A stretch of 64,000 nt of DNA from Thermoproteota archaeon (lineage in GTDB: Archaea; Thermoproteota; Thermoprotei_A; EX4484-217-1). The position numbers were made by a program, and so were the translations under genes. The stretch is taken from assembly GCA_029258915.1 (NCBI GenBank), contig JAPDJU010000012.1, positions 1-64,000 of the forward strand. Direction: 5' to 3'. Shown one piece after another: positions 7,542 to 52,342 of the stretch. Every line of letters begins with the position of its first letter. Within the stretch, counting starts at the first letter, position 1. Below the pieces are notes generated by a model, which worked only from the letters and a program-made list of their open reading frames with translations, had not been told where the DNA came from and searched no databases.

Positions 7542-8497
7542 GTGTAAATAAGTTAGGCCTTAAAGTGGCTCAGAAACTAATAGAGAACCATAAGGAATAC
7601 AATGTAAAGGTAGTTAGCGGACCATTAGGTTCAACCATAATCGATGCAGGAATCGAAGCTAAAGGAGGAATTGATGCAGGAATTCTAGTAGCTGAAGCAA
7701 CTATGGGTGGTTTGGGAAGGATAAAATTAGGGTTTAGAGACTATGATGGCCTAACTTTGCCAACAGTAGAAGTTTATACGGATCATCCTATAATAGCATG
7801 CATGGCATCTCAATATGCTGGATGGAGAGTTTCAACAAAAGATTATTTCGCTATGGGAAGCGGGCCAGCTAGGGCATTAGCGCTTAAGCCTAAGAAATTG
7901 TTTCGGGAAATAGGCTATAAAGATGAATACGATGAAGCAATAATTGTTCTTGAAGCAGGAAAATATCCTACAGAAGAAGCAATAAAGCTAATTGCTGAAA
8001 AATGCAGTGTAAAACCGCAAAACGTAACAGTTATAATAACACCAACCCAGAGCATAGCAGGTTCCGTTCAGATAAGCGCTAGAATAGTTGAAACAGGAAT
8101 TCATAAACTACATACAGTAGGTTTTCATCTAGACAGGTTCATTGTAGGTCAAGGAGAGGCACCAATAGCACCGCCTCATCCGGATCCAACAGTAGCTATG
8201 GGTAGAACAAACGACATGATACTCTACGGTGGAGTAGCTACATACTTCGTAAATGCTGAAGACAATGAAATAGTAGAGTTATTAAAGAAAGCTCCATCAT
8301 GTACTTCAAGAGACTATGGTAAACCATTCTACGAAGCATTTAAGGAAGCAGGCTTTGACTTTTACAAAATAGATCCAAACCTGTTTGCACCAGCAATGTA
8401 CGTTGTTTTCAACGTTAAAACAGGTTCAACGTTTAGAGCAGGATACATAAACGCAGATGTTTTGAAGAGAAGCATAGCTTATCAGGAAGTTAAATAG
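7523..8497 (+). CDS. mch: Methenyltetrahydromethanopterin cyclohydrolase
   Basis: ATMGGLGRIKLGFRDYDGLTLPTVEV, GSGPARAL, PPHPDPTVAMGRTNDMILYGG. Confidence 0.95.
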   Translation: MGRNSLSVNKLGLKVAQKLIENHKEYNVKVVSGPLGSTIIDAGIEAKGGIDAGILVAEATMGGLGRIKLGFRDYDGLTLPTVEVYTDHPIIACMASQYAGWRVSTKDYFAMGSGPARALALKPKKLFREIGYKDEYDEAIIVLEAGKYPTEEAIKLIAEKCSVKPQNVTVIITPTQSIAGSVQISARIVETGIHKLHTVGFHLDRFIVGQGEAPIAPPHPDPTVAMGRTNDMILYGGVATYFVNAEDNEIVELLKKAPSCTSRDYGKPFYEAFKEAGFDFYKIDPNLFAPAMYVVFNVKTGSTFRAGYINADVLKRSIAYQEVK

Positions 8498-11198: not shown

Positions 11199-11885
11199 TT
11201 GATCAAAGTAATTCCGGTATTAGACATAATGAACGGATTAGTTGTTCACGCGGTTGCTGGAATCAGAGAGAAATATAGACCACTAAGAAATAGTGTTATA
11301 GTAAACTCAGCAAGCCCCTATGATTTGCTTAGGAAATTAAAGAACTTAGGATTTGACGAAGTCTATATAGCTGACTTAGATTCCATACTTAGAGCAGGAG
11401 AAAACATAGAAGTTATAAGCAAAGCTCTTTCTTTAGGATTCAGAGTTTTAGCCGATATAGGGGTTAAAGGAGTAAGAATGAAAGATAAACCTAAACTAGA
11501 GTTAGTTATCGGTACAGAATATTTAAGCAGTCCTGAACAGCTGAAAGAGCTTAAAAATAGGAGCATAAGTATTGATGTATATCATGGCAAGGTTAAGTTT
11601 AAAGATAAAAGACATGATATACATGGTGTCTTAAAGAAAATTAAAAACATAACGTACAGCAATGTGTTAGTCATATTTTTAAACCTCGTAGGGACATTTA
11701 AGGGTCCAGACTTTGAACTAATTAAACTTGTACTAGATAATGTTTCAAGTAAAGAGATTATTGTAGGCGGAGGCATAAGAGGCGTAGAAGACCTGAAGAA
11801 ATTAGAGAACATAGGTATATCTAAAGTTTTAGTTGCTTCAGCCTTACATAAAGGAATTATAGTTAAACCCTATTATAGCTTCTAA
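11199..11885 (+). CDS. HisA-like (beta/alpha)8 protein of unknown function
   Basis: IKVIPVLDIMNGLVVHAVAG, DEVYIADLDSI, IIVGGGIRGVEDL; no other his genes nearby. Confidence 0.8.
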   Translation: MIKVIPVLDIMNGLVVHAVAGIREKYRPLRNSVIVNSASPYDLLRKLKNLGFDEVYIADLDSILRAGENIEVISKALSLGFRVLADIGVKGVRMKDKPKLELVIGTEYLSSPEQLKELKNRSISIDVYHGKVKFKDKRHDIHGVLKKIKNITYSNVLVIFLNLVGTFKGPDFELIKLVLDNVSSKEIIVGGGIRGVEDLKKLENIGISKVLVASALHKGIIVKPYYSF

Positions 11886-13008
11886 GCTTATTAATCCTCA
11901 AAATAGCTTCGGAAATAGTTGGCACTTTACCTAGAACTATGTTTTTCTTTGCTGCTCCCACGCTAAGTATTCTTTCATTTGAAAGAATCTCTCTCTTCTT
12001 TTCCGAAATAACGTAATATGCATAGCCTACGTTTTTAACATCAACTTTTGCTTCAGCCTCTACTTTTTCACCTACAGAATATAGCATTAGCTTTCCAAGA
12101 TCGGCTCCAAATATTTCAGCTAGCCCTAAGAAAGAAGTAGTTAGTCTTGGATTAATTTCAACAATGTAAGGCTTCCAATTTACCCATACTAAATCTAAGC
12201 CAAAATATCCTTTAAGCCCTTTACAAATTTTCACAATCTTATATACTAGATCCATGGATTTCTTATGAAGGCCCTTATTTTTTAATGGAGTTATTCCACC
12301 ATAGTATTTTAAATGGCCTCTACTATCCATTTTTATTAGTTGGATATTGTTTGAAAGAAAGATTATTTCTTGACCATTAGATATAACAGATATGCTTGCG
12401 TGGATACCTACTAAATATTCTTGAATAGCTACTTCATCTAAGAATGTGTTTTGAAAAGCATAGTCTATAGCGTATTTTAATTGTTCATGAGATTTAGCCA
12501 AGGTTATTCCTGCTGAACCAGCCATATCAATTGGTTTAACAATGACAGGATAACGTACATTAATGGTTGATTCTTTCCTTAAAAACACAGTCTTGGGAAC
12601 TAATACATCATGTTCCTTTAGAAATAGGAATGTGTTCTTCTTATTAGAAAATAATTGAATGCAATTGCATGTAGGTCCCAGTACTTTATCCTTTACTATT
12701 TTAGCTAATTCTATAAGTTCTTTAGGGGGCGCTATGAGAATAACATAGTCGACTAAGCTAGCATGTTTTTCAAGAACACCGAGATAATCTTCATAGTCTT
12801 TAACGACTATCATTTTGAAGGGAGAGCTTATATTTTCAAATATGCTGTTTAATGTGATGTACACGTCTGCGCCTGCTTCCTTTAAAACTTTAGTCGCTGT
12901 ATACGCCATAGAGAAGCCTTCAACAACTAAATCCCAATAGGATTTAACTGTTCCTTTACTGCGAGGACCGATGCTCGAAATGAACTCAGTAACTAAAACT
13001 TTAGGCAT
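11863..13008 (-). CDS. mfnD: ATP-grasp ligase, MfnD-like (tyramine-glutamate ligase family)
   Basis: ATP-grasp motifs (VIVKPIDMAGSAGITLA, LDLVWVNWKPYIVEINPRLTTSF) within the methanofuran cluster. Confidence 0.65.
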   Translation of the reverse strand: MPKVLVTEFISSIGPRSKGTVKSYWDLVVEGFSMAYTATKVLKEAGADVYITLNSIFENISSPFKMIVVKDYEDYLGVLEKHASLVDYVILIAPPKELIELAKIVKDKVLGPTCNCIQLFSNKKNTFLFLKEHDVLVPKTVFLRKESTINVRYPVIVKPIDMAGSAGITLAKSHEQLKYAIDYAFQNTFLDEVAIQEYLVGIHASISVISNGQEIIFLSNNIQLIKMDSRGHLKYYGGITPLKNKGLHKKSMDLVYKIVKICKGLKGYFGLDLVWVNWKPYIVEINPRLTTSFLGLAEIFGADLGKLMLYSVGEKVEAEAKVDVKNVGYAYYVISEKKREILSNERILSVGAAKKNIVLGKVPTISEAILRINKLRSYNRV

Positions 13009-15081: not shown

Positions 15082-15582
15082 CTATTGGAGTAAAGTGCTG
15101 AGAACCTTTACTAATATATCTGCTGTTCTTTTAACATCGCTAGTCATGGGAGATCCGAAACTTATATCGCTTACCTGAATACCTAATAAGTACTGTTCAG
15201 CTTTAGGTAACATATACTCTAGGTATCTGCGAAGCATAGAATATGATGGTTTATGAGTTGTAGGGAAAACTACTTCCAGTTCTTCTATTTCCTTTAAAGA
15301 ACCAAAGACCAGGAAACCAGGGTTTAAACCTGCCTTTACGGCGTCTATGAAAACCACCACCTCTGGTCTAGCATTTACAGCTACGCCCAGAAAACTTTCA
15401 GGTGAAAGCCCAGCATCAACAACATTATTTAGCCCTCTTAACCTAAGATTACTAGCAACATATGAGCCAACATAATCATCTCCTCGGAGATCATTACCTA
15501 CACCTATAATGAATACCTTTCTACCTGAAAGAACCTTAACTATGCTATCTTTAACTTCGCTGAAACTTCCTAAAACAAACAT
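15082..15582 (-). CDS. Hydrogenase maturation endopeptidase (HycI/HyaD family)
   Basis: FIIGVGNDLRGDDYVGSYVA; directly follows the hydrogenase genes. Confidence 0.88.
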   Translation of the reverse strand: MFVLGSFSEVKDSIVKVLSGRKVFIIGVGNDLRGDDYVGSYVASNLRLRGLNNVVDAGLSPESFLGVAVNARPEVVVFIDAVKAGLNPGFLVFGSLKEIEELEVVFPTTHKPSYSMLRRYLEYMLPKAEQYLLGIQVSDISFGSPMTSDVKRTADILVKVLSTLLQ

Positions 15583-15621
15583 TATAGCTAAACCTTCAAG
15601 AAAGTAAAATTAGAAGTAAAC

Positions 15622-16503
15622 TTATTTTTTGCTTTTTCTCCTGCGTAATGGTGGCGGTAAATCCGGTAGGAATTTTATAGCATCTACTGGACATGCTTCA
15701 TAGCATTGTCCGCAAAAGAGACACTTATTGATATTGTATATTGGTAAAAGTCTTCCACCAATATCTTTCATTGTTATTGCTTCTGTAGGGCAGACCCTAG
15801 CACATAAGGTACATCCAGTACATATGTTTCTATCTATTTGAATAGTTCTATACCTTAGTAAACCTGCTTTCTCCAGCGGAGATTCCGGTATTTTCTCCGG
15901 TATTTTCTCTACTTTCTCAGGGAACTTCACTAATGGTGAAATTGCTTCAGAGGAACAAATTTCAACACATTTATGGCAGAAAACACATAAATCAACATCG
16001 TAAGATGGAATCACCCTACCATCCTTAATAACCATGGTTATCGCGTGAGTTGGGCAAACAGCTGCGCAAAGCTCGCACTCAACACATTTAGAATAATCTA
16101 TCTTCATGTACCTTATCTTTTCTAGACCCGCTAAAACATACGGTGCTATAGGTACTTTAGGTAATCCCTCATACGCAGACTTCTTTGCTGAGGAAAGCTC
16201 AAATTCGGTCGATGAAACTATTGCGTTTGTTGGGCAATTATATATACATTCATAGCAGAAACAGCATCTACTTACATCATACCATGGCACGGATCTTCCA
16301 TCAGTCCATTTAAGCTTAATTGCGAAAGTAGGGCATACGTCTTCACAAACACCGCATTCAACACATCTATTCCATAAAAATACTGGTTTACCCCTAAACC
16401 CTTCAGCTATTACTGGTTTTTCAAAGGGATATTTGTGTGTTGCTGGTTTCTTAAATAAGTAACTAAAAACTTCAGCTATTAGGGAGGGTATTTTCTTACC
16501 CAT
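15622..16503 (-). CDS. Polyferredoxin with six [4Fe-4S] motifs, MbhN-like
   Basis: Six CxxCxxC...CP-type motifs arranged as three tandem 2x[4Fe-4S] units (sixth Cys of one motif followed by S). Confidence 0.92.
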   Translation of the reverse strand: MGKKIPSLIAEVFSYLFKKPATHKYPFEKPVIAEGFRGKPVFLWNRCVECGVCEDVCPTFAIKLKWTDGRSVPWYDVSRCCFCYECIYNCPTNAIVSSTEFELSSAKKSAYEGLPKVPIAPYVLAGLEKIRYMKIDYSKCVECELCAAVCPTHAITMVIKDGRVIPSYDVDLCVFCHKCVEICSSEAISPLVKFPEKVEKIPEKIPESPLEKAGLLRYRTIQIDRNICTGCTLCARVCPTEAITMKDIGGRLLPIYNINKCLFCGQCYEACPVDAIKFLPDLPPPLRRRKSKK

Positions 16504-16506
16504 CCC

Positions 16507-17670
16507 CTACCTCCTCCAATATTTCTTCTTAATTTCACCTATGGTCATGGTTTTTCTTGTTCCCGATTTAGCATCTAAAAGCATTACTGTTGTTCTATCG
16601 GTACATGCGAAACATGGGTCTATGCTTCCTAGGATAACTGGGATATCTGCTACATGGTAGCCCTTGAACATTTCGCAAACTCCAGGTATGTTTGCATATG
16701 TTGGCGTTCTAACCCTGTGCCTCCAAGGAGTTACTCCACCTCTCCATATGGTGTGATGTAGCACTTCTCCCCTAGGAGCTTCAACTCTACCTTCTCCCTT
16801 ACCCTCAATAGTCCTTGGAACTTTAGTACATATTGGGCCTTGAGGTAAGTGGTCTAATGCATACAATATTATGTTTATTAGTTCTAAACATTCATCAACT
16901 CTGACCATGTATCTTGCCCAACTATCTCCTTCCTTATATGTTATGACTTTGAAAGGTATTTCATCATAAGCCTCGTATGGATCAGTATATCTTAGATCTA
17001 TTTTTACTCCAGAACCCCTAATTGTTGGACCTACCGCGCCTAACGCTAGTAGCTTGGATCCACTAATATATCCTACGTCCATAGTTCTAGTGGTGAAAGT
17101 TGGGTCCTCGCTTAAGACCTTTTTATATCTTTCAATTCTCTTGTAAAGCTTAGGCAGCTTATCCTTCATCTTATCAACAAGCGCTGGAGAAATGTCTCTT
17201 GTAACACCTCCAACTCTTACATATGCGGATATTACTCTATTACCTGTAAGTTCCTCAAACAAGCTCATTACTAGTTCTCTGTCTCTCCAAAACAGCATAA
17301 ATAGCGTTTCAAAACCCATTAGCTCTGCTGCAACACCTAGTAAGAGTAAGTGGCTGTGTAACCTATTAAGTTCATGAGCAATTACTCTCAAATACTTCGC
17401 TCTTGGAGGAACTTCAACATCTGCTGCTTGCTCAACTGCTTCGGCAAAACAGAGAGTATGGGCTACATTACAAATACCACAAATTCTTTCAGCAAGATAT
17501 AGTCCTTCAATGAACGTTTTTGTTTCCATAAGCTTCTCTATTCCCCTATGCATATAGCCTATTCTAGGTATAACATCTATAACGGTCTCACCCTCAACTT
17601 TAAAGAGGAACCTTTCTGCTTCATGCAATGCCGGGTGCTGAGGACCTACAATTAAGCTTATTGCTGGCAC
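16507..17670 (-). CDS. [NiFe]-hydrogenase large subunit, group 4 (MbhL/Ech-like)
   Basis: Both Ni-ligand motifs intact: RICGICNVAH and DPCFACTDR. Confidence 0.93.
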   Translation of the reverse strand: MPAISLIVGPQHPALHEAERFLFKVEGETVIDVIPRIGYMHRGIEKLMETKTFIEGLYLAERICGICNVAHTLCFAEAVEQAADVEVPPRAKYLRVIAHELNRLHSHLLLLGVAAELMGFETLFMLFWRDRELVMSLFEELTGNRVISAYVRVGGVTRDISPALVDKMKDKLPKLYKRIERYKKVLSEDPTFTTRTMDVGYISGSKLLALGAVGPTIRGSGVKIDLRYTDPYEAYDEIPFKVITYKEGDSWARYMVRVDECLELINIILYALDHLPQGPICTKVPRTIEGKGEGRVEAPRGEVLHHTIWRGGVTPWRHRVRTPTYANIPGVCEMFKGYHVADIPVILGSIDPCFACTDRTTVMLLDAKSGTRKTMTIGEIKKKYWRR

Positions 17671-17672
17671 TT

Positions 17673-18194
17673 CTACCTCACCTTTTTAATCTTCTTTATC
17701 AGCTTAATCTCCTTTCTAAGAGGATAAATGTTGTCAGGCCATTCTTCGGGAAGAAATACTTTCCCCAAAGCCGGATGCCCTACAAACCTTACGCCAAACA
17801 TTTCATAATTTTCACACTCATATAGGAGTGCCCCGGGTACTATGTCTGTTATGGTTTCAACTTCAGGGTTTGCCCGGGGAATATTCATTTTAAGTGTTAA
17901 ATGTAGTTTAAAATCGTCTTCTGCTAACTGTATCTCATACTGTAACTCAAAATATTCTTTATCAATATAATCCACCGTGTTTATTGTTACTAAATATGAG
18001 GATTCGGCGAATTGGTTCCTAAGCCATTTAATTATCTGCTTATGTGAATTACGTACTATTTTTAACTCGGCACGAGTGGGGGTAAGAACTTTAACGCTTA
18101 ATATCTTATCCTTAAACTCTCTCCTTAGCTCTTCTAAGAACTTGGAAACTTTTTCCGGAACTTTTTTTACCTTACTTTCTACCGCCATTTCCAC
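17673..18194 (-). CDS. NuoC/MbhK-like 30-kDa-type subunit
   Basis: CENYEMFGVRFVGHPALGKVFLPEEWPDNIYPLRKE. Confidence 0.85.
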   Translation of the reverse strand: MEMAVESKVKKVPEKVSKFLEELRREFKDKILSVKVLTPTRAELKIVRNSHKQIIKWLRNQFAESSYLVTINTVDYIDKEYFELQYEIQLAEDDFKLHLTLKMNIPRANPEVETITDIVPGALLYECENYEMFGVRFVGHPALGKVFLPEEWPDNIYPLRKEIKLIKKIKKVR

Positions 18195-18612
18195 CGCCCT
18201 TAATCTTCTTTATCAAAGTAACTATACCGTGAATTATTGCTTCGGGTCTTGGAGGACATCCAGGAATATAAACATCAACAGGGATTACTCTGTCAACTCC
18301 CTCATATACGAAGGGCGATCCTTGAAATACATTACCATTTACTGCACATGTTCCAACGGCAATGACGAATTTTGGCTCAGGCATTTGCTCATAAATTCTC
18401 TTTAACCTTCTAGCTACTTGTTTAGATACTGCACCTGTAACTATCAGTATGTCTACATGTCTAGGAGATGGTTTAAGTAGTATTCCGAAACGTTCAACAT
18501 CATATCTTGGAGTTAATGCTGCTAGAACTTCGATATCGCATCCATTACATCCGGGAGATGGGAAATGTAGAATCCATGGAGATTTTATTCTTGCCCACTG
18601 AACAATTCCCAT
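18172..18612 (-). CDS. [NiFe]-hydrogenase small subunit (MbhJ-like)
   Basis: PGCNGCDIE, GTCAVNGN, PGCPPRPEAI proximal-cluster cysteines. Confidence 0.93.
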   Translation of the reverse strand: MGIVQWARIKSPWILHFPSPGCNGCDIEVLAALTPRYDVERFGILLKPSPRHVDILIVTGAVSKQVARRLKRIYEQMPEPKFVIAVGTCAVNGNVFQGSPFVYEGVDRVIPVDVYIPGCPPRPEAIIHGIVTLIKKIKGGGNGGRK

Positions 18613-18871
18613 AACTCAGCCTCCTCACTGGAAGAGTTTCCTTGTTCATCTAGGTTATTGGGTCTATATTAAATAAGATACTCTATAGTAGAAGTATATA
18701 GATAACATAGGAAGGTAATGAATTAAACCATTTAGGCTAAATAGTAAATTCTTCACATTATCATTGCTGACCTCCTTCATATTCTACTATAAGTTATTTT
18801 TATTTATACATGCTAGGAAAAGGGTTATACGAACTTCAAGTGATGATAAAGACTGGTTAAGGGAAATTCTG

Positions 18872-19156
18872 ATGGCTTTAGAAAATTTCATATCTACGTT
18901 CATAGTCGTGTTACTGCCAGCATTTCTAATATCCTTAAGCTTATACGCTATAAGAGTAATTAAAGGTCCTTCAGTAACCGATATGGTTTTAGCTATTGAC
19001 TGTATAACCTATGATCTATGTTTTCTTATGGGGCTACTTTCGATACTTTTCAAAATAGGCTTCCTAATGGTTGCAGCTTTGGCCTTGGCCTTATGGGCTT
19101 ACGTTTTAGATGTTTACGTAGCTAAGTATTTAGAAGCAAGAGAGGTTGGAGATTAA
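18872..19156 (+). CDS. MrpF/MnhF-like antiporter subunit
   Basis: VIKGPSVTDMVLAIDCITYDL; ATG 18872 with upstream AAGGGA preferred over track start 18764. Confidence 0.85.
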   Translation: MALENFISTFIVVLLPAFLISLSLYAIRVIKGPSVTDMVLAIDCITYDLCFLMGLLSILFKIGFLMVAALALALWAYVLDVYVAKYLEAREVGD

Positions 19157-19554
19157 TGTTCATATTTCCTGAGCTAAACCCATTAGAAGAGATAGCTTTA
19201 ATCATAGGGATAATCTTAACGTTAATTGGTGTATTCTGCGATATTGTTGGATCTATCGGTATGGTTAGGTTTCCTAATTTCTTTGTTAGGCTTCATGCTG
19301 CAACAGTAGGAACAATAGGAGGAGCAGTTTACCCACTGTTTGGCATTACACTTATGTCTCTTGCTCTAAACTACTTAGGTGTGATGAGATACTTCATAGC
19401 CACTGGAGCTTTTCTTACAGCTATAGCTATTGTCTTAACAGCTCCTGTGGGTTCCCACGCTCTTGCTAGAGCAGCTCATAGATCCAAAACTGTTCCCGTA
19501 GAACCTAAGGTTTGTGATTTTCTAAAAGAAGATGAGAGGCTGATTGAAGAATGA
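19156..19554 (+). CDS. MrpG/MnhG-like antiporter subunit
   Basis: GSIGMVRFPNFFVRLHAATVGTIGG. Confidence 0.9.
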   Translation: MFIFPELNPLEEIALIIGIILTLIGVFCDIVGSIGMVRFPNFFVRLHAATVGTIGGAVYPLFGITLMSLALNYLGVMRYFIATGAFLTAIAIVLTAPVGSHALARAAHRSKTVPVEPKVCDFLKEDERLIEE

Positions 19555-19814
19555 TTGAAGCAACGTTAATTGCTGAAATACTCTTAGCTTTTTCACTTAC
19601 GCTAGCCTTAATCTTCGCCTACCTTGCTATTAGGGAAAGAGATTTAATTAAGGCAATAGTGTTCTCAGCATTACAGTCTGTTGCCTTCGCCTACGCTTAC
19701 TACCTGTTGTTTGCTCCAGACATAGTGTTAGCATACATCGCCGTTGGTGTTGGTATTTATTCGATACTGTTAATTTATGGTGTAAGTAAAACCGAAAGGT
19801 ATGAAGAGGTGTAA
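19551..19814 (+). CDS. MbhD-like (DUF4040) subunit
   Basis: DLIKAIVFSALQSVAFAYAYYLLFAPDIVLAYIAVGVG. Confidence 0.85.
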   Translation: MIEATLIAEILLAFSLTLALIFAYLAIRERDLIKAIVFSALQSVAFAYAYYLLFAPDIVLAYIAVGVGIYSILLIYGVSKTERYEEV

Positions 19815-19816
19815 TT

Positions 19817-20644
19817 ATGGTTATTAGTAAGGTAAGACCTCGTAGTGAAATAATTATAGGTTTAGGCGTAGCATTACTGCTTGTACTTACATTATTTGCT
19901 GTTATTGCTGGAGCTACAGGGTTTACACCTAAAGAGGATATTAGGCCTCTAGCTAAGTTCTATCTCTATTATGCAATTAACTGGTATGAGAAGAAATTCT
20001 GGGCAGCAAGTCCTGAAGCAGTAAACTCTATGGTCTGGGACTATAGAGGTTACGATACACTGTACGAAACCTCAGTATTCTTCCTAGCCATTATAGGCGC
20101 TATAGCTGTTTTTAGAATACCCGGCGTTAAAGACGTTTTCTCCAAGGGAATTTTAAGCGGTAGAGGCTTATCACTTATAGTTAAAACAATAACTAAACTT
20201 GTAATAGCCTTTGTACTTATAGTTTCAATAGCAATAGCTGTTCATGGAAACTTAACACCTGGAGGAGGCTTCCAGGCCGGATCAGCAATATCAATAGCGA
20301 CCCTTTTAGCAATCGCAGCTTTCTCAAGAATATTCTTAGAAGAAAGAAAAATTACAACAAAACTTATGCTGCCTATCAGAGTTTTAGGAGTTTTAGGTAT
20401 AGGATTACTTGCCCTAGGTCCAGCATTAATTGCTTTAAGCGGTATAATGTCCTTTGTTATTCAAAACCAACCTAAACCATGGGCTGACTGGGGATTTATA
20501 CCTGGAGTAGGACCATTCTGGCTCTCTGGAAACCAATTCTTCTACAACTTCTTTGAATTCGTAGCTGTAGGAGCCGGATTTACTGTTATTTACTTGATAT
20601 TCTCAATACCTGAACTAATTTACAAGAGGGTGTTGAAAAAATGA
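19817..20644 (+). CDS. MbhE/F - MrpB-like subunit
   Basis: VHGNLTPGGGFQAGSAISIATLLAIAA; N-terminal MbhE-like region. Confidence 0.87.
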   Translation: MVISKVRPRSEIIIGLGVALLLVLTLFAVIAGATGFTPKEDIRPLAKFYLYYAINWYEKKFWAASPEAVNSMVWDYRGYDTLYETSVFFLAIIGAIAVFRIPGVKDVFSKGILSGRGLSLIVKTITKLVIAFVLIVSIAIAVHGNLTPGGGFQAGSAISIATLLAIAAFSRIFLEERKITTKLMLPIRVLGVLGIGLLALGPALIALSGIMSFVIQNQPKPWADWGFIPGVGPFWLSGNQFFYNFFEFVAVGAGFTVIYLIFSIPELIYKRVLKK

Positions 20645-21036
20645 CAAGCATAGTATCCCAGGCTCTGTGGATTTATTTCTACATAACGCTAATAGGCTTA
20701 ATTGCAATTGCCGTTTACGGTATTGTTGTCAGACCTAATTTGTTAAAGAAGATAATTGCTTTATCTATTTTAGGAGATACTGCAAACACGTTTATAATAT
20801 TCTTAGGCTTTAGAAGAGGAGGAGCTGCTGTACCTATAATTCCAACTATTAAACCCACACTAGAAGAGTTATTGTGGTTTAAAGAAACAGCTGTTGACCC
20901 GTTACCTCAATGCTTAGTTATAACTGCAATCGTTATCAACATGTCTGTTACAGCATTTCTAATAGCTTTAGCCATCCAGCTTTACAGGCTTTACGGAACT
21001 CTTGATGTTAGAAAAGCAGTTAGGCTAAGAGGGTGA
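20641..21036 (+). CDS. MrpC/NuoK-like subunit
   Basis: GIVVRPNLLKKIIALSILGDTANTFIIFLG, DPLPQCLVITAIVIN. Confidence 0.88.
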   Translation: MTSIVSQALWIYFYITLIGLIAIAVYGIVVRPNLLKKIIALSILGDTANTFIIFLGFRRGGAAVPIIPTIKPTLEELLWFKETAVDPLPQCLVITAIVINMSVTAFLIALAIQLYRLYGTLDVRKAVRLRG

Positions 21037-21042
21037 AGAACA

Positions 21043-21558
21043 GTGGGTGTTTTAGAAAGAACACTTAAAATAGTTGCCGTAGCAGTAATGTTGTTTGCAG
21101 TTTTCATAATAGCCTCGGCCAGTGTGGCACCGCAAGACATAATTTACGGTATCATATTCTCCATTGCTGTTGCAGTTGTCGTTTCAGAACTTCTAATAGC
21201 CAAGCATACTAAACCATATGATATTAAGAGATGGTTTTGGACAATAGCTTATACTTTCTACTACTTCATAGTTGCAGAGTATAAGGCTCACTCAGATGTT
21301 ATAATGAGAATACTTCATCCTAAAATGCCTATTAAACCAGGTATTGTTAGAGTTCCTTTCCATGTTAATACAGACTATGCTATAGTTACAATTGCGAATT
21401 CAATAACAAATACTCCTGGTACAGTTGTCGTAGATCTGGATACAAAGAGAAAATACTTTTATGTCCACTGGATTAACGTTAAAGCACCTGATGAAAAAAC
21501 AACTTTTGAAAATATTTCTAAGATGTTTGAATATTTTGCTAAAAGAATATTTGACTAG
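21043..21558 (+). CDS. MrpE/MnhE-like subunit
   Basis: Two N-terminal TM helices; NSITNTPGTVVVDLD. Confidence 0.87.
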   Translation: MGVLERTLKIVAVAVMLFAVFIIASASVAPQDIIYGIIFSIAVAVVVSELLIAKHTKPYDIKRWFWTIAYTFYYFIVAEYKAHSDVIMRILHPKMPIKPGIVRVPFHVNTDYAIVTIANSITNTPGTVVVDLDTKRKYFYVHWINVKAPDEKTTFENISKMFEYFAKRIFD

Positions 21559-21568
21559 GTGATGATGG

Positions 21569-23176
21569 ATGGAAATATATCCTCCACTACCTCCAATAAT
21601 GATACACTCATTAGCTCTAGCACCAGTAACAGCTATAGTATCTGCTTTCGCAATGCCACTAATAGGTTTAACAATTAAGAATAGGAAAGTATGGGATGCT
21701 TTTGCATTAACGATATCAACAATTGTTTTCATACTTACAGGAATAGGCTATGCTACGGTTCGGTATTTAGGTAAGCCGTTTGTATACTTGCTTGGAGGAT
21801 GGCCACCACCTGTAGGTATAGTTTACGAGGTTGATGAGTTTGCTGCACTCTTAGGCCTTGTTTCAGCCTTCATTATATGGTTAGTGGTAATTTACGGTGT
21901 AAAATACTTTGATTCAAACGAGGATGGCATGGAATGGTACTATACGATGCTTTTAGGATTAGAAGCAGGTGTTCTAGGGTGCATATATACTGGCGACGTA
22001 TTCAACGTATTCGTACTTTTTGAAGTACTTTCAATAACATCCTACGGTTTAGTAGCCTTTTGGAATAGAAGAGGAGAATGTATTGAAGCTGCTATAAAGT
22101 ATTCGCTTATAGGTGCTTTAGCTACAACAATATACTTCCTAGCTGTAACATTCATTTACGCTTCTCTTGGAACATTAAACATGGCGGATATTGCAGCTAA
22201 AATAAGAGGTTTATTCTTCCCGGTAACAGGTGAACCTTATGGAAGCATAGCTTTAGGTGTTGGCTTATTCTTAGCATTGTCTATATGGGCTTTTACCGTT
22301 GAAGCAGGTGTAGCACCGAATCACTTTAGAGTTCTTGACGCATATCAGGTTTCACCATCAACAGTGGCTGCATTGCTTTCAGCAGTGGCTGCTAATGTAG
22401 GATTCTATCTATTAGCAAGGTATTTGATAACTCTTCTAAGTGGAGCTAGAGCAGTTGAAACAATAGTTAATGCCGGATTATTAATAGTACTTATCATGGG
22501 TTTAGTTTCAATAATTGTAGGGTCGTTCTTAATGATTGTTCAGTCTGATGTTAATAGAATTTTAGCTTACAGTTCAGTATTAAACTATGGTTATGTGTGT
22601 TTAGCTATAGGATTAGCTACGCCTTTAGGTATTATAGCAGCGCTATTTCACATGATAAACCATGCTGTAGCTAAAACGCTTATATTCTTAACAGCAGGAG
22701 TTTACGTTAAAGCTTCTGGAACAAGGCGTCTGGACGGAATGGAGGGTGTTGGAAGGTATGCTCCTATTACATCAGCTCTAATGGTTATAGCAGCATTAGC
22801 TTTAGCAGGTGTTCCACCTTTCAACGGTTTTGTAAGTAAGCTAATACTCTATGAAGCCCTTCTAGAAGTTAACCTAGCCCCGCTAGTTATAATAATAGTT
22901 TTATCAAGTGCACTATCACTCTTAGGCTATTTGAAAATAATTTACCATGCATACACTAAACCCCCGATGAAAGACTATGGTAAAGTTGAACCTCCAAAGG
23001 CAATGCTTTGGCCTATGATTATTCTTGCGGCTCTATGTATAATCTTAGGTGTCGCATCCCCCTGGATATACGATATGTTCATAGAGCCTGCAGCACATAC
23101 TATTTTTGAAACCGATAAGTTTATAGAAGTAGCTTACGAATTCGCTGAAAAACTACTCATAGGTGTTAGGATATGA
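21569..23176 (+). CDS. MrpD/NuoN-like proton-translocating antiporter subunit
   Basis: GLEAGVLGCIYTGDVFNVFVLFEVLSI, FHMINHAVAKTLIFLTAG. Confidence 0.92.
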   Translation: MEIYPPLPPIMIHSLALAPVTAIVSAFAMPLIGLTIKNRKVWDAFALTISTIVFILTGIGYATVRYLGKPFVYLLGGWPPPVGIVYEVDEFAALLGLVSAFIIWLVVIYGVKYFDSNEDGMEWYYTMLLGLEAGVLGCIYTGDVFNVFVLFEVLSITSYGLVAFWNRRGECIEAAIKYSLIGALATTIYFLAVTFIYASLGTLNMADIAAKIRGLFFPVTGEPYGSIALGVGLFLALSIWAFTVEAGVAPNHFRVLDAYQVSPSTVAALLSAVAANVGFYLLARYLITLLSGARAVETIVNAGLLIVLIMGLVSIIVGSFLMIVQSDVNRILAYSSVLNYGYVCLAIGLATPLGIIAALFHMINHAVAKTLIFLTAGVYVKASGTRRLDGMEGVGRYAPITSALMVIAALALAGVPPFNGFVSKLILYEALLEVNLAPLVIIIVLSSALSLLGYLKIIYHAYTKPPMKDYGKVEPPKAMLWPMIILAALCIILGVASPWIYDMFIEPAAHTIFETDKFIEVAYEFAEKLLIGVRI

Positions 23177-23520
23177 GCCTGCTTATGGTTGTTTTAGAAA
23201 CCGCAGTTTCAATGTTTATAGTAACATTGTTAGCCTATGGACTCTACCTTTACTCAGTAAAGGTAACTAAAAGTTTTTCCAGGAAAACTAGGGAGAAAGT
23301 TCTTATCTATGCGTGTGGCGAAGACATTACCGAAAAAGAGGCACTTTTAGCAGATAGGCATTTATTTACAACGATCTGGAATGAAGTTTTCAAGCCACTA
23401 TATGATTCTCTTAGAGGGAAAGTACATACGGGAATACTTAATGACTGGTTTTTCTGGATGTTCCTAGCTTTAATCATAGCTTACACTATAATAATTGTGT
23501 TAGGTGGTGTAAGTGGCTAA
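23173..23520 (+). CDS. MbhI-like small membrane subunit
   Basis: Two TM helices around KVLIYACGEDITEK; between MrpD-like and NuoH-like genes. Confidence 0.72.
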   Translation: MSLLMVVLETAVSMFIVTLLAYGLYLYSVKVTKSFSRKTREKVLIYACGEDITEKEALLADRHLFTTIWNEVFKPLYDSLRGKVHTGILNDWFFWMFLALIIAYTIIIVLGGVSG

Positions 23521-24502
23521 CGGAATATTTGAAACGCTAATGCTGGTAGGAGAGACGTTAATCTATCCTGGAGCAGTATTCTCTTTCATAGTTGCAATAT
23601 TTACTCAGTGGTTTAGAAGAAAAGCTTACGCTAGAATGCAGAATAGAATGGGTCCAACATATACAGGTCTTGCAGGAACACTACAGCCTTTCGCAGACTA
23701 CGTTAAATTATTCTTTAAAGAGGACATAGTTATTATTAGAGGCTACGCTAAATTACCAGCATTCCTGCTCGCATTAGCAATAGGTGCCCTAATAGCGATA
23801 CTTTTAATGTTACCCATATCCCCGTATAGTGTTTATGCACCGTACGATATTATAGTAGCAGCATATTTGCTAATATGGCCAACACTAACCCTTGCCGCTC
23901 TGGGATTCCTAACACCAAGCCCCTATGGTGCTTTAGGTTCTTCAAGACTACTTACATTAACAATAGCATATGAAGTAGCTTTCCTAATTTCAATACTAAC
24001 ACCCGTAGTTCTAGCTAATAGAATACTTGGAGCACAATACTCACTATACCTCTCATCAATTTACAGTTGGCTACTATGGACAAACCCCGTATTAATACCG
24101 TTAATTATAATATCACTACTTACCGCATTAATTTCATTGCAATGTAAACTACTAGAGAAGCCATTCGATATTCCAGAAGCAGAACAAGAAATAGTTGCAG
24201 GGCCTTTCACAGAGTATTCAGGGCCAAAATTAGCATTCATAATATTCATTCACGATATCGAACAATACGTAAACTCGCTGATCATAGTATTCTTATTCCT
24301 AGGTGGTGTAGCACCCTTCGTGGAAGGCCCATTATGGGCTCAAATACTAGTAGTTGCTATTAAGTATATTGTTGTAGTTCTTGTTCTAACATGGATTAAA
24401 GCTATGGTAGCAAGGTTTAGAGTAGATCAAGCAATAAAAATGCTATGGAAATACATAGTACCTTTATCACTATTCGCATTAATAGTTTCCACAGTAATAT
24501 AG
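23513..24502 (+). CDS. NuoH/MbhM-like membrane anchor subunit
   Basis: RMQNRMGPTYTGLAGTLQPFADYVKLFFKE, PFDIPEAEQEIVAGPFTEYSG. Confidence 0.93.
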   Translation: MANGIFETLMLVGETLIYPGAVFSFIVAIFTQWFRRKAYARMQNRMGPTYTGLAGTLQPFADYVKLFFKEDIVIIRGYAKLPAFLLALAIGALIAILLMLPISPYSVYAPYDIIVAAYLLIWPTLTLAALGFLTPSPYGALGSSRLLTLTIAYEVAFLISILTPVVLANRILGAQYSLYLSSIYSWLLWTNPVLIPLIIISLLTALISLQCKLLEKPFDIPEAEQEIVAGPFTEYSGPKLAFIIFIHDIEQYVNSLIIVFLFLGGVAPFVEGPLWAQILVVAIKYIVVVLVLTWIKAMVARFRVDQAIKMLWKYIVPLSLFALIVSTVI

Positions 24503-24678
24503 AGGTGTCAGCTTAATACACAGTTTAAATATCTATTCACTTCCTATCCTTCCTCAAACCTCTACATAGCGATGGAATTTCTTGTAATTAAAATAGAGGT
24601 ATATGGTGTTTTATTGAAGGCAAAGTTATTTAAACACCGTTAAATATTTTAAATACTGTCAAAGATAGGTGAGTATTT

Positions 24679-25176
24679 ATGGAGATAGAGGATTTACTTA
24701 AATACCTTGTTGAACATTTTAATGCTAAAATCAGTATCGAGAAAGATAGGAACTTTGTATTAGCTAGAGTTGATAAATACTCCTACGTTAATGTAGCAGA
24801 GTTTTTGTTCAAAGAAGGATTTAGAAGATTGCTAACAGTTTCAGCTATCGATTGGCTTTCGAGAAACGTTATTGAAATATACTTTATCACGTATAACCAT
24901 GTTATGAACGTCTATGTTAAAGTTTCAACAGAAATACCTAGAGATTTCCCGGAAATACCTTCTTTATCAAGTATGTGGGAAAATGCTGCTATGCATGAAA
25001 GAGAAGTGTGGGAGCTTTTCGGTGTTTCGTTTATAGGGAATAAGATGCTTAAGCCATTATTCCTAGAAAACTGGAAAGGTCCTCCACCTTTCAGAAAGGG
25101 TTTTGACTGGAGAGAGTATGTCGTTAAGGAATACGGTTTAAAATATCCTCCAGTACCTAAAACTGTTTATCAATAA
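24679..25176 (+). CDS. Second NuoC-like 30-kDa-type subunit
   Basis: HEREVWELFGVSFIGNKMLKPLFLENWKGPPPFRKGFDWREYV. Confidence 0.88.
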   Translation: MEIEDLLKYLVEHFNAKISIEKDRNFVLARVDKYSYVNVAEFLFKEGFRRLLTVSAIDWLSRNVIEIYFITYNHVMNVYVKVSTEIPRDFPEIPSLSSMWENAAMHEREVWELFGVSFIGNKMLKPLFLENWKGPPPFRKGFDWREYVVKEYGLKYPPVPKTVYQ

Positions 25177-25203
25177 CAAAATAAAATAAAGAGGCAATCT
25201 ATC

Positions 25204-27213
25204 GTGAAAATAAGTAATATATTTAAACCTTTCAAAACTGTAGGTAAGTTTCTAGTGGAAAAACCTTTGACATTCCACTTCCCACCTGAATCCCCAGTAT
25301 TTACTGAAAGATTTAGGGGAAGACACATATATCATCCTGAGCTTTGTATAGAGTGCAAACTTTGCGGTATAGTATGTCCGAATAATGCCATAGATTTCCT
25401 ATTTGAAAAGGATGAAAAAGGTTTAGTTCATTTTAGAACTCAAGTAGACTATGCTAAATGCTGCTTCTGCGGGCTATGCGAAGACGTATGTCCCACTAAA
25501 GCACTAGAAATGACTAATTTCCCATTTCTTGTAGCTATGGATAAAAAAGAGCTATATTATAGCTGGAAAAAACTTTCTGAAAAACCCTCACTCACCCTTC
25601 CCTCAATAAAAGAAAGAAAAGGGCTAATACCATGGGCTAGAGCTAGAAGCTTCTGGATAGTAAACTACTTTACGGGATGCTGTTTCATAGAAGCTGTACC
25701 CTGGGTTGCAAGTAGCTTCGACATGGAGAGATTTGGTCTCTTAGCTACAGCATCGCCGAGACATTCTGATGTCCTTCTTATAGGAGGCTATGTTACACCT
25801 AAAACTCTTAAAAGAATAATCAGAATATATTCTCAAATGCCAAAGCCAAAGTTCGTTTTAGTTCTTGGAAATTGCCCCATGACCGGTGGAACATATTGGG
25901 ACAGCTACAATACTATCAAGGAACTTGATAAATACATTCCAGTAGATCTCTGGATAGCTGGATGTCCTCCAAGAGTTGAAAACGTAGGATACGCCATATT
26001 CTTAGCTATATGGGCTGTTCAGCATGGATATACTGGTAAGGAGGAATACGTAAATACTGAGCATGGAAAATACGCTTTGCCCTATGTAGTACCTAAAATA
26101 AATAAGGACTATAACATCGTAGAGTTTGGTCCACAACACCCTGCAAGCGGGAATTTCAACATACTTCTTAAGCTTAAAGGGGAGCGCGTAGTAGAGGCAA
26201 CGCCCAATGTCGGATACTTACATAGAGGGTTTGAGAAGCTTATGGAGTATAGAACATGGTGTCAAAACATAATGATAGTTCAAAGAGTTTGTGTACTAGA
26301 TGGTGCATCATATGAACTAGCATACGTTGGTGCAGTAGAGAAGATTGCCGGTTTAGAAGTTCCAGAAAGAGCTAAATATTTACGTGTTATTCAAGCAGAG
26401 CTTAGTAGAATTCAAAGCCACTTACTCAACCTAGGACTATTAGCTGCATCTGCAGGATTCGATACAATAACCAGAATAACGTGGGGCGATAGGGACAAAA
26501 TACTTTACCCACTAGAATACATGACCAGAGGAAGAGTATATCAAATATACAATATTCCAGGCGGTGTAAGATACGATATCCCACTAGATTTCGTAGATAA
26601 GGCTTTTGAAGTAATAAAGTACATGGAGAAGAGACTTAAAATATACGATGACCTACTATTTAACAACCAAGTATTTATAGATAGAACAAAGAACATAGGT
26701 AAATTACCTAAAGAAATGGCTATAGAGCTTGATGTAACAGGCCCGAACATGAGAGCTTCAGGCATAGATTTTGATGTTCGAAGAAATGTTCCTTATGAAG
26801 CATATAAAGACGTTGATTTTAAAGTTCAAGTTCTACAAGACGGAGACGTATACTCTAGAGCCCTATGTAGAAGAAGAGAAATAGAGGAGAGCCTTCACAT
26901 AATAAAGCAAGCTATAGGTAAATTGCCTAAAGGTCCTATAGCCGAGAGGAAAATGTCTAGAGGAGGATATTTCTCATTTATGTCTTCTATACCTACTGGA
27001 GAAGCAATACATTGTGTCGAAAGCGCTAGAGGAGAACTCTGCTTCCACATAGTGAGTACAGGCGGGGTTAAGCCTTACAGAGTTAAAATTAGAGGGCCAA
27101 CATTTGACACTATACTTGTAGCGTTACCTAAATTATTGAAAGGCGTTCAAGTGGCTGACGTACCAGTAATATATTGGAGCTTAGATAATTGCCCGGCAGA
27201 TCATGACAGGTAA
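25204..27213 (+). CDS. NuoI-NuoB-NuoD-like fusion protein (ferredoxin + small + large subunit, Mbx/complex-I-like)
   Basis: Uninterrupted 669-aa ORF: 2x[4Fe-4S], then TGCCFIE...GNCPMTG...AGCPPR, then PQHPASGN...QRVCVLD...DNCPADHDR. Confidence 0.93.
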   Translation: MKISNIFKPFKTVGKFLVEKPLTFHFPPESPVFTERFRGRHIYHPELCIECKLCGIVCPNNAIDFLFEKDEKGLVHFRTQVDYAKCCFCGLCEDVCPTKALEMTNFPFLVAMDKKELYYSWKKLSEKPSLTLPSIKERKGLIPWARARSFWIVNYFTGCCFIEAVPWVASSFDMERFGLLATASPRHSDVLLIGGYVTPKTLKRIIRIYSQMPKPKFVLVLGNCPMTGGTYWDSYNTIKELDKYIPVDLWIAGCPPRVENVGYAIFLAIWAVQHGYTGKEEYVNTEHGKYALPYVVPKINKDYNIVEFGPQHPASGNFNILLKLKGERVVEATPNVGYLHRGFEKLMEYRTWCQNIMIVQRVCVLDGASYELAYVGAVEKIAGLEVPERAKYLRVIQAELSRIQSHLLNLGLLAASAGFDTITRITWGDRDKILYPLEYMTRGRVYQIYNIPGGVRYDIPLDFVDKAFEVIKYMEKRLKIYDDLLFNNQVFIDRTKNIGKLPKEMAIELDVTGPNMRASGIDFDVRRNVPYEAYKDVDFKVQVLQDGDVYSRALCRRREIEESLHIIKQAIGKLPKGPIAERKMSRGGYFSFMSSIPTGEAIHCVESARGELCFHIVSTGGVKPYRVKIRGPTFDTILVALPKLLKGVQVADVPVIYWSLDNCPADHDR

Positions 27214-34523: not shown

Positions 34524-35783
34524 TTGAGGTTGAAGCTTGTGCGTAAAGCTGCGATAGCATTTGTGATCTTAGTGTTAATGGTTGCTGCATTTGCAATATT
34601 TGTTTTGCCGCTTAGACTATTAAATCAGTTAATGCCATCTCCTGTTAAGGCTAGGGAAATTGCAGTTCCCGAATTAACTAGTAGAATGAATAACTTTACC
34701 CTTAAACTCTATGGTGAATTGTTGAGAGATAATTGGAAGAGAAATATTGTGGTTTCACCTTTCAACGCATATATAGCGCTGACCCTACTATACGAGGGCA
34801 CTAACGGAACTACTAGAACTGAAATAGGTGAGGTACTAGGTCTTATAGGCGTCGATCCATGTAATGCATATCAGCAACTCCTAGACTCACTTCCTCTAAA
34901 CATGGATGACAATACAACACTCATAATTACAAATGCAGTTTGGCTTAGAGAAGGATTCTCGTTCAAAACAAAATACATAGAAACGGTAAGGAAATATTAC
35001 AAGGCAGAGGTCAAGTATTTCAATAATGTACCTCAACTTGTTACAGAAGTTAACAGTTGGGTTAGCAAGAAGACTAGAGGACTCATAAAGAATATTTTAA
35101 ATCCAAACGATGTTAGCGAAAATGTCGTAGCAGTTCTAGTATCGGCCATTTACTTTAAAGGAGAATGGGTTGAGAAGTTTAAGCCTATAGGACCTTTCAA
35201 ATTCTGGGCTGGGGAAGAGTATGTTAACGCTCCTGGAATGGAGGTAATAAGCGACGTTATAAAAGTTGTGCATGGCGCAGATTATACTGCAGTAGAAATA
35301 CCCTACAAGAATATAAACATTACAATGGTTATAATAATGCCTGAAAAGTACACCGACATACCCAGTAAGTATGAGGAATTAATTTTGGATGCTTTAAGAA
35401 GGCTAAATAGGGCTAATACCAGGAAAACCGTATGGCTGACTATGCCGAAATTCAACATATCGCTTAAAACAAATATGGTTAATCATCTCCAAAATATGGG
35501 GATAGTAGAGGTATTTACACCCGGCAAAGCAGATTTAACCAGAATGGCTAACGTAAGAGTAGGGGAAATATGGGCTGATAAGATTATACACCAAGCAGTA
35601 ATCAAAGTGAATGAGGAAGGCACTGAAGCAGCAGCTACTACCGTTATTGTTATTGTAAGAGGACCCCTCCAAGCAGACGAAAAAGTAGTAGTAAACAAAC
35701 CATTCATATACGTACTTCGAGATAAGGAAACTAACACAATACTATTCATAGGACATATCATAAACCCTATTGAATCTGAGTAG
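34524..35783 (+). CDS. Serpin with N-terminal membrane anchor/signal
   Basis: NIVVSPFNAYIALTLLYEGTNG, LVSAIYFKGEW, hinge NEEGTEAAATTVIVIV, NKPFIYVLRDKETNTILFIGHIINP. Confidence 0.94.
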   Translation: MRLKLVRKAAIAFVILVLMVAAFAIFVLPLRLLNQLMPSPVKAREIAVPELTSRMNNFTLKLYGELLRDNWKRNIVVSPFNAYIALTLLYEGTNGTTRTEIGEVLGLIGVDPCNAYQQLLDSLPLNMDDNTTLIITNAVWLREGFSFKTKYIETVRKYYKAEVKYFNNVPQLVTEVNSWVSKKTRGLIKNILNPNDVSENVVAVLVSAIYFKGEWVEKFKPIGPFKFWAGEEYVNAPGMEVISDVIKVVHGADYTAVEIPYKNINITMVIIMPEKYTDIPSKYEELILDALRRLNRANTRKTVWLTMPKFNISLKTNMVNHLQNMGIVEVFTPGKADLTRMANVRVGEIWADKIIHQAVIKVNEEGTEAAATTVIVIVRGPLQADEKVVVNKPFIYVLRDKETNTILFIGHIINPIESE

Positions 35784-50932: not shown

Positions 50933-50938
50933 AACTTA

Positions 50939-51454
50939 TCACCCTTTAAATTCGAAATAAACTTGACCTTTACGAATATATTCTGCCGCAAGCTTAGCAG
51001 CCTTAATAAATCTCAAATAACTGCCGCATCGACAGAGATTGCCGCTAAGTGCCTCCCTAATCTCATCTTCTGTTGGATTAGGGTTTCTATCTAAAAGACT
51101 CTTCATAGCCATAATTACACCCGGGAAGCAAAAACCACATTGCATAGCATAAGTATCTAGTAATGCTTTCTGAATTGCATGTAACTTGCCAGGAGGCGCT
51201 AATCCTTCAAGAGTAAGTATTTTCTTACCTCTAGCTTGAATAGCGAGCACTAAACAAGAAGCTATAAGCTTGCCATCCATTATAACTGCACATGTACCAC
51301 ATTCTCCTCTTCCACAACCTTCTTTAACGCTTGAAAGTCCTAACTTATATCGTAACACATCAAGAAGCCTCTCATAAGGTTTAACTTTAACTGTATAATC
51401 CTTACCGTTAACGTTTAATGTAATTTCTATTTCGGGATATTCTTCCGTTGACAT
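50939..51454 (-). CDS. Molybdenum hydroxylase 2x[2Fe-2S] small subunit
   Basis: KEGCGRGECGTCAVIMDGKLIASC, CGFCFPGVIMA, NLCRCGSYLRF. Confidence 0.95.
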   Translation of the reverse strand: MSTEEYPEIEITLNVNGKDYTVKVKPYERLLDVLRYKLGLSSVKEGCGRGECGTCAVIMDGKLIASCLVLAIQARGKKILTLEGLAPPGKLHAIQKALLDTYAMQCGFCFPGVIMAMKSLLDRNPNPTEDEIREALSGNLCRCGSYLRFIKAAKLAAEYIRKGQVYFEFKG

Positions 51455-51457
51455 GGA

Positions 51458-52342
51458 TTAAACACCTTCTACAATACGTGATTTAGCTTGTAAAAGTGTT
51501 CTCTTCATTAAAACCTTGGATAAATCAAGTCTATACTCTCCTGAAGCTCTAAAATCGCTTTTTCTTACCATCTCTGCTGGCAAAACCTTATTATATGCTT
51601 CTCTTATGATATCAACGCTAAATTCTTTACCTTTAAGAAATTCCTCTGTTTTCTTTGCTCTACTCGGAATACGTTTATTTACACGGTCAAACGCTATTCT
51701 AACATCAGCTATTTTATTATTCTCTATTTTTAAACAAACAGCTGTAGTTATATAACCTGTTACTATAACTTCTCTTCTATCAATCTTCATAAAGGCTGTT
51801 GAATAATTTTCCGGGAGCTCAGGAAATATTATTTCATATATTAGCTCATTAGGATCTTTAGCTAATGTTCTTTTTTCAACAACAAGCTCTTCTAGAGAAA
51901 CAAGTCTTTCTCCTTCAACACTTACAAGTTTTACTTTAGCATTTAATGTTAGCAAGAATGTTAAATAGTCGGATGCTGAAACGGCAACGCCGATGTTACC
52001 GCCTATTGTAGCTAATGGTTTCAATATTGGTGATGCAAACTTCTTATAGATATCGTAAAACCCTAAGTATTTTTTGTCTTTATGTAAAAATGTTTCAGCT
52101 AAATCTTCTGGTGTTGTGAGAGCTCCGATAGCTATATTGTCATTAACCTTTCTGACGTAGGATAGTTTATCCTTTAACCCTGACAGGTCCACTAAAACCT
52201 TGGGTTTAATTTTTCGCTCTCTTATCTGTATTAATAAATCTGTACCACCTGCTAAGGGTACAGCATCTGGAGCATTTTTATCTAAATATTCTAAAGCGTC
52301 GTTAAGATCCTTAGGAATATATACATTAAACCTAGGTATAAT
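51458..52342 (-). CDS. Molybdenum hydroxylase FAD-binding medium subunit; 5' end lacks a canonical start
   Basis: Track ORF begins at 52192, but the same frame continues upstream with IIPRFNVYIPKDLNDALEYLDKNAPDAVPLAGGTDLLIQIRERKIKPKVL; only ATT/ATA after SD AGGAGGT. Confidence 0.85.
   Translation of the reverse strand: MIPRFNVYIPKDLNDALEYLDKNAPDAVPLAGGTDLLIQIRERKIKPKVLVDLSGLKDKLSYVRKVNDNIAIGALTTPEDLAETFLHKDKKYLGFYDIYKKFASPILKPLATIGGNIGVAVSASDYLTFLLTLNAKVKLVSVEGERLVSLEELVVEKRTLAKDPNELIYEIIFPELPENYSTAFMKIDRREVIVTGYITTAVCLKIENNKIADVRIAFDRVNKRIPSRAKKTEEFLKGKEFSVDIIREAYNKVLPAEMVRKSDFRASGEYRLDLSKVLMKRTLLQAKSRIVEGV

Follow-up and report, generated by a model that had tools for sequence, protein, structure and literature searches.

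The stretch of DNA analysed here (the window) comprises positions 1 to 64,000 of contig JAPDJU010000012.1 in assembly GCA_029258915.1, from a Thermoproteota archaeon whose genome is called G000 below. At 15082-27213 it carries a divergent locus of the complex I superfamily, built from three parts (Table 1). A complete [NiFe] catalytic arm occupies the minus strand (15082-18612), with the genes running from 18612 down as small subunit, NuoC-like subunit, large subunit, polyferredoxin, and HycI-type protease. On the plus strand, a membrane arm consisting of a single MrpF-to-NuoH set (18872-24502) is followed by a second NuoC-like gene and a gene in which NuoI, NuoB, and NuoD are fused. This last pair (24679-27213) is referred to as C-IBD. 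A first-pass annotation, made from the letters alone, had described the same content, and its coordinates were confirmed. It had also read the locus as a mosaic in which two catalytic arms share, or alternately dock on, one ion-pumping module and so switch between H2 and another acceptor, an interpretation that the analysis supports in part.

Table 1. Genes and other features of the locus, in positions of the window
Feature	Position	Strand	Basis
HycI-type [NiFe] maturation protease	15082..15582	-	PF01750, 34.8 bits
NuoI-like polyferredoxin, six [4Fe-4S] motifs, electron entry of the NiFe arm	15622..16503	-	six CxxCxxCxxxC motifs; Fer4 x6
[NiFe] group-4 large subunit, four Ni cysteines, C-terminal tail	16507..17670	-	best PDB match MbhL 6cfw_L, E 1e-75; CCCC
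NuoC-like subunit of the NiFe arm	17673..18194	-	PF00329
[NiFe] small subunit, CNGC-type proximal cluster	18172..18612	-	PF01058; motif
MrpF	18872..19156	+	sequence; homologous to MrpF in Mbh/Mbx loci
MrpG	19156..19554	+	TIGR01300
MbhD-like	19551..19814	+	conserved gene order
MrpB (MnhB domain)	19817..20644	+	PF04039 match at 20177-20581
MrpC	20641..21036	+	
MrpE	21043..21558	+	
MrpD, sole antiporter-like pump subunit of the arm	21569..23176	+	PF00361
MbhI-like subunit	23173..23520	+	26-33% identity to the same-position gene of Mbh/Mbx loci
NuoH-like anchor, only NuoH of the locus	23513..24502	+	PF00146, 234 bits
Intergenic gap with TATA-like boxes	24503..24678		sequence; conserved in same-genus L032
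Second NuoC-like subunit, closest to MbsK	24679..25176	+	PF00329; 6u8y_K, E 1.2e-14
I-B-D fusion, 669 residues	25204..27213	+	
Fusion domains	residues 1-140, NuoI (two clusters); 141-290, NuoB (tandem CC); about 291-669, NuoD/MbsL (C-D-C-D)		

How do the two large subunits of the locus differ? In the left one all four Ni cysteines are present (RICGIC...DPCFAC), and 28 residues follow DPCFACTDR as a tail; with these four ligands, a cleavable tail, and a maturation protease, the left arm is a group-4 [NiFe] hydrogenase. The fusion reads C-D-C-D at the four Ni positions, retaining Cys1 and Cys3, and has no tail, with the stop placed exactly at the counterpart of the cleavage site (after DNCPADHDR). 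Ser and Val stand at the positions of Nqo4 His38 and Tyr87, so the quinone-site residues are absent. The Ni ligands had been called degenerate in the first-pass annotation, which is accurate for the C-D-C-D pattern but not for the protein, since the fusion carries a conserved signature of its own. The strictness of that signature across phyla rules out a degenerate hydrogenase. The two residual Ni-site cysteines are kept in all complete fusion copies but one. In the membrane-bound sulfane reductase (MBS), the Ni cysteines C85 and C385 were reported to be dispensable for catalysis (PMC7684303).

The deviating copies are two. The fusion of G583 has both residual cysteines replaced (Asn, Ala), and that of G498 has its D domain split by an in-frame TAA (L126 1489-3504 and L208 646-2658 for the pair). 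Such copies are what might be expected if the fusion were a non-catalytic relic or an assembly placeholder, an idea made highly improbable by the invariance of every cluster cysteine, and of many positions besides, in 16 fusion sequences across phyla.

The window genome (1.6 Mb, 99.66% complete) encodes four large subunits by the profile PF00346 and three NuoH by PF00146, along with seven PF00361 matches and three MnhB genes. A single membrane arm, as first proposed, is therefore correct for the locus and wrong for the genome, where two further NuoH-bearing complexes rule it out; C3 additionally carries an Mrp antiporter that stands alone, with no NuoH. A second complete arm had been named beforehand as the finding that would count against sharing. 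Complete arms do exist, but each has its own catalytic subunit: the complex at C2:30-50 kb, linked to carbon monoxide dehydrogenase (CODH), has its own NuoH, a C-D fusion, and an Mrp set, while a third group-4 enzyme at C2:157-163 kb, beside hyp genes, has its own NuoH and NiFe large subunit. With four large subunits set against three NuoH, the shortage of one falls at the window locus, where two large subunits accompany one NuoH.

Could C-IBD dock on one of those other arms instead? Both are present in G000, and in most genomes C-IBD is not beside its presumed partner. The idea is nevertheless improbable, as C-IBD lies directly behind the window NuoH, likewise in a metagenome-assembled genome (MAG) of the same genus, and the NuoH of the NiFe enzyme is the sole NuoH in several Asgard genomes and in G003 and G280, where it sits in the [NiFe] hydrogenase locus. 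That same-genus MAG (L032) carries an identical arrangement at 83-95% nucleotide identity to the window, and this recurrence rules out misassembly. The fusion region (L032 8168-9390 versus window 25101-26328) is 94.6% identical between the two species and the membrane arm about 85%, reflecting either strong constraint or recent exchange.

The two other complexes of G000 have features of their own. The CODH-linked one (L021, G000:C2:30000-49999) joins CooS/CooC CODH genes to a full NiFe-Mrp complex and includes a second NuoL-like open reading frame (ORF), truncated to 295 aa (11340-12227), that adjoins MrpF. In the third group-4 operon (L022, G000:C2:152001-172000), an HdrB-like protein with CCG domain is encoded between the NuoC-like and NiFe large-subunit genes (7592-8470), as also in the equivalent operon of the same-family genome G002 (L226 454-831). 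The only PF00361 subunit of that operon (L022 5302-6950) is short (384 aa), matches just the C-terminal half of the profile, and is preceded by a ferredoxin gene; beside the operon in L022, no full-length MrpD/NuoL turned up.

Is the missing anchor peculiar to the window? The same difference, PF00346 large subunits minus PF00146 NuoH, was taken for each of 19 genomes that carry C-IBD without a dedicated arm; G001, which is cut by a contig end, was left out. In 16 of the 19, the large subunits outnumber NuoH by exactly one (G000, G003, G064, G067, G068, G280, G486, G488, G490, G491, G498, G583, G588, G593, G600, and G601). The exceptions are G061, with an excess of at least one that includes fragments; G062, a genome of 0.6 Mb with no NuoH found; and G063, with two large subunits and two NuoH, one of the latter on a short contig that carries no large subunit. 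In 56 fusion-free relatives of the window genome, the difference was zero in 46, minus one in 10, and plus one in none; these controls, drawn from one class without Asgard members, were tallied by hand, with the fusion as protein query rather than PF00346 used to count large subunits. The contrast in excess-of-one genomes (16/19 versus 0/56) gives a Fisher p of about 1e-13, to be read with the caveat that lineages are not independent. The fusion is the large subunit without an adjoining NuoH in the C-IBD genomes except those of the window's own genus, and all 19 genomes encode at least one CCCC-type [NiFe] group-4 large subunit. The missing anchor is thus a family trait of C-IBD and not a local oddity, and the expectation that one catalytic subunit would have no NuoH of its own is borne out in G000 and in most other C-IBD genomes.

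The family is wide but sparse. Scanning genome contigs with the fusion brought up relatives that align along almost the whole length at 58-66% identity; they come from Baldrarchaeota, Bathyarchaeota/Hecatellales, Lokiarchaeota, Heimdallarchaeota, and a Thermoproteota MAG of the same order. Genome searches placed the fusion in 3 of 400 genomes from the window's phylum and, in the phylum to which the lokiarchaeal G066 belongs, in 14 of 232. Nearly all copies form a two-gene unit, NuoC-like gene first and fusion second, among unrelated genes. On the methanomethylicotal contig L034, I, B, and D are separate genes, with the same CC motif in B. A literature search that covered few subscription journals found no description of a stand-alone I-B-D fusion.

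In the three asgard genomes G583, G600, and G601 (L194 10268-16536, L209 9576-15907, and L207 596-7137 for the three), C-IBD adjoins genes for FlpD (MvhD), a molybdopterin oxidoreductase, and FrhB/FdhB-like proteins, which may point to another electron route there. Neighbors of this kind are typical of soluble electron transfer, and together with the stand-alone setting of most copies and the activity of a soluble MBS subcomplex (PMC7684303), they favor the main rival explanation: that C-IBD is a ferredoxin-dependent reductase, either free or loosely attached to the membrane and uncoupled from ion pumping, whose position behind NuoH reflects coincidence or co-regulation.

Several observations make a free reductase the less likely reading, though it is the most serious of the alternatives. 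One lies in the protein itself. The I domain keeps an N-terminal helix and a KPxTxxFPP...GRH motif resembling those of NuoI/NdhI, with K20, T23, F26, P27, P28, G39, and R40 invariant in 16 fusion sequences, and in the stand-alone copies, too, these docking elements and the D loop show little or no variation. Another is linkage to membrane arms. In the window C-IBD directly follows an Mbh-type NuoH at the end of an Mrp-type arm. In the lokiarchaeal genomes G065 and G066, it lies directly behind a NuoA-H-K-L-M-like arm, and each genome has one large subunit, one NuoH, and no other group-4 enzyme. The NuoH of these two groups with that of the [NiFe] enzymes from G588 and G593 (96/97); the arm genes A, H, K, and L best match the [NiFe] arm of G588 and M that of G600. 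Because of this grouping and these matches, C-IBD seems to have replaced a NiFe arm in the two lokiarchaea. Its separate linkage to two different kinds of arm is an argument that C-IBD works on membrane arms. Finally, the distribution is complementary: C-IBD occurs either with its own arm and no NiFe enzyme, or without an arm and alongside a NiFe enzyme.

To whom, then, does the window arm belong? Its NuoH branches (100/100) before the Desulfurococcaceae NuoH divide into those of Mbh-type and those of Mbx-type operons (98/96); the family label was inferred for the compared sequences from gene order and PMC2678158. In that family, related copies of the Mrp-type arm occur in one operon with NiFe genes and in another with Mbx genes; for Smar_0018-0030 and Smar_0645-0657, duplication of an antiporter cassette and its combination with divergent catalytic subunits have been proposed (PMC2678158). 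An arm that serves C-IBD only, with the divergent NiFe arm placed on another anchor, would suit both the opposite strand of the NiFe genes and the identity of the window NuoH, which is 42-43% to an Mbx-arm NuoH against 38-39% to Mbh-arm ones. Such exclusive service is quite improbable, even more so than docking of C-IBD elsewhere, given that in Desulfurococcaceae this gene set comes after NiFe genes within a single operon (Smar_0018-0030, PMC2678158), that the window NuoH branches outside both types, and that no other free NuoH is available for the NiFe set.

The three modules of the locus have different affinities. The nearest neighbor of the NiFe large subunit is the G003 protein (93/94), part of an enzyme mounted on a Nuo-type arm; the membrane arm has the position just described; and the kin of the fusion are asgard and bathyarchaeal. 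These differences fit the term "mosaic." The further label Mbh/Mbx is approximate as regards Mbx, the fusion being a separate clade, sister to Mbs/Mbx, with a complex-I-type cluster motif. Trees of MrpB, MrpD, and MrpE, considered for dating the arm, had too weak support and were not used.

What kind of enzyme might C-IBD be? Its D domain is most like MbsL of the Pyrococcus furiosus sulfane reductase (E 3e-91), and MBS (PDB 6u8y) gives the best PDB match for the D, B, and C parts alike. In a tree of 68 sequences the fusions form one clade (100/100), outside the MBS clade and sister to the MBS/Mbx type (98/93); this distinct clade and the CC motif rule out an ordinary Mbx. A single-chain structure model built with 16 sequences is of low confidence (mean pLDDT 61.7), and its top Foldseek PDB match, again MbsL, is taken as agreement only. 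As in MbsL, two of the four Ni cysteines, the same two, are retained and equivalents of Nqo4 His38/Tyr87 are missing (PMC7684303). Unlike MBS, C-IBD joins I, B, and D in one chain. Its B domain also differs, with adjacent cysteines as in complex I (TGCC in all fusions, VGCC in one) where MbsJ has CTGC; the proximal cluster of MBS is held by three Cys in a CxxC motif with one Cys unable to bind (PMC7684303). The adjacent CC makes it probable that four cysteines hold the proximal cluster of the fusion, and the open-iron mechanism put forward for MBS cannot be taken for granted in it. MBS has its own Mrp-type arm with two antiporter-like subunits, whereas C-IBD is armless in most genomes and the window arm has one MrpD.

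Other relatives differ in other ways. In the Desulfurococcaceae MBX type (Smar_0645-0657), the large subunit likewise reads C-D-C-D and lies next to an Mrp-type arm that has one MrpD and an MbhI-like subunit, but the genes are separate, the complete membrane arm is its own, and B is of the CxxC type. The left and middle parts of the window locus correspond to MBH, the group-4 [NiFe] type (6cfw; Smar_0018-0030), with four Ni cysteines, a protease, and the order Mrp F-G-MbhD-B-C-E-D-MbhI-NuoH (PMC2678158). They depart from it in the inversion of the catalytic genes relative to the arm, the six-cluster polyferredoxin, and the kinship of the large subunit to one on a Nuo-type arm. With complex I and the Fpo-type 11-subunit enzymes, C-IBD shares the tandem CC of the NuoB domain and, in the lokiarchaea, the arm type; unlike them it has no quinone-binding His38/Tyr87 equivalents, keeps two Ni-site cysteines, and has no NADH module. 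The hydrogenase-related complexes called Ehr combine a degenerate Ni site with membrane subunits of their own. Set against that definition, C-IBD shows a degenerate site, and membrane subunits of its own only in the lokiarchaea. By the sequence tests made here, C-IBD stands inside the complex I superfamily as a variant of its own, a sister group of MBS and not one of its members. G600 and G601 (L191, L160) encode a further complex with its own arm, a C-D-W-D large subunit, and a CC-type small subunit; it groups with crenarchaeal Nuo-like proteins and is another intermediate between MBS and complex I.

The reading we favor, with a probability of a little over 50%, is that C-IBD serves as an alternative catalytic arm, self-contained and belonging to the MBS branch but without an anchor, that would dock on the NuoH/Mrp arm shared with the [NiFe] arm, reduce an acceptor other than protons, and drive the same pump. 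Electrons from reduced ferredoxin would pass through the polyferredoxin of the NiFe arm to form H2 or, alternatively, through the I domain of the fusion and its B-domain cluster to a small hydrophobic non-proton acceptor in a chamber between D, B, and NuoH, with either route driving the same ion pump. Owing to kinship with MBS, a sulfane sulfur or disulfide compound would be the likeliest acceptor. Which arm is in place might be set by the relative expression of the two catalytic units, and each NuoC-like subunit may decide docking, since NuoC-type domains can be complex-specific in Escherichia coli (PMC7050243).

A number of points weigh against this reading. (i) Most C-IBD pairs lie far from any membrane gene, which makes a free enzyme possible, and the cytoplasmic MBS subcomplex is active in vitro without the membrane arm (PMC7684303). 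(ii) In place of the open three-cysteine site of MBS, which is considered catalytic (PMC7684303), the B domain carries CC, so a sulfane reaction does not follow from homology. (iii) The 176-base gap between NuoH and the second NuoC-like gene, with TATA-like boxes TTTAAATA near 24524 and TTTTAAATA near 24647, may hold a separate promoter for C-IBD, possibly letting the second arm be expressed alone. (iv) The complex specificity that NuoC-type domains can have in E. coli (PMC7050243) is a further such point. (v) The control counts contain no Asgard genomes without C-IBD, and many of the genomes counted are fragmentary MAGs.

Complex I, MBH, and MBS are each viewed as a fixed pairing of one catalytic arm with one membrane arm. 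We would suggest, more tentatively than the docking itself, that archaea of several phyla carry an exchangeable, armless C plus I-B-D arm that borrows the pump of a group-4 [NiFe] hydrogenase, giving one pump two electron acceptors, with a chemistry between those of MBS and complex I. If so, a conserved arm without an anchor, found only in genomes with a group-4 arm on offer, would amount to living evidence that respiratory complexes had a modular origin, and would provide a direct system in which to test this. It would also explain how anaerobes with small genomes switch electron acceptors without a second pump of 9 to 11 genes. The fusion supplies a combination of characters between MBS and complex I, two Ni-site cysteines and a tandem CC.

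Some smaller observations concern the window itself. The ATG at 18872 is the likelier start of MrpF, though its ORF is open from 18764. A Pfam search with the MbhI-like protein gave no match, and SurR-type sites near the locus were no more frequent than expected by chance. Elsewhere, as read from sequence alone, an ORF at 34524-35783 resembles a serpin-type protease inhibitor with a hydrophobic, signal-like N terminus, and three genes at 48554-52192 form a molybdoenzyme cluster resembling xanthine, aldehyde, or CO dehydrogenases.

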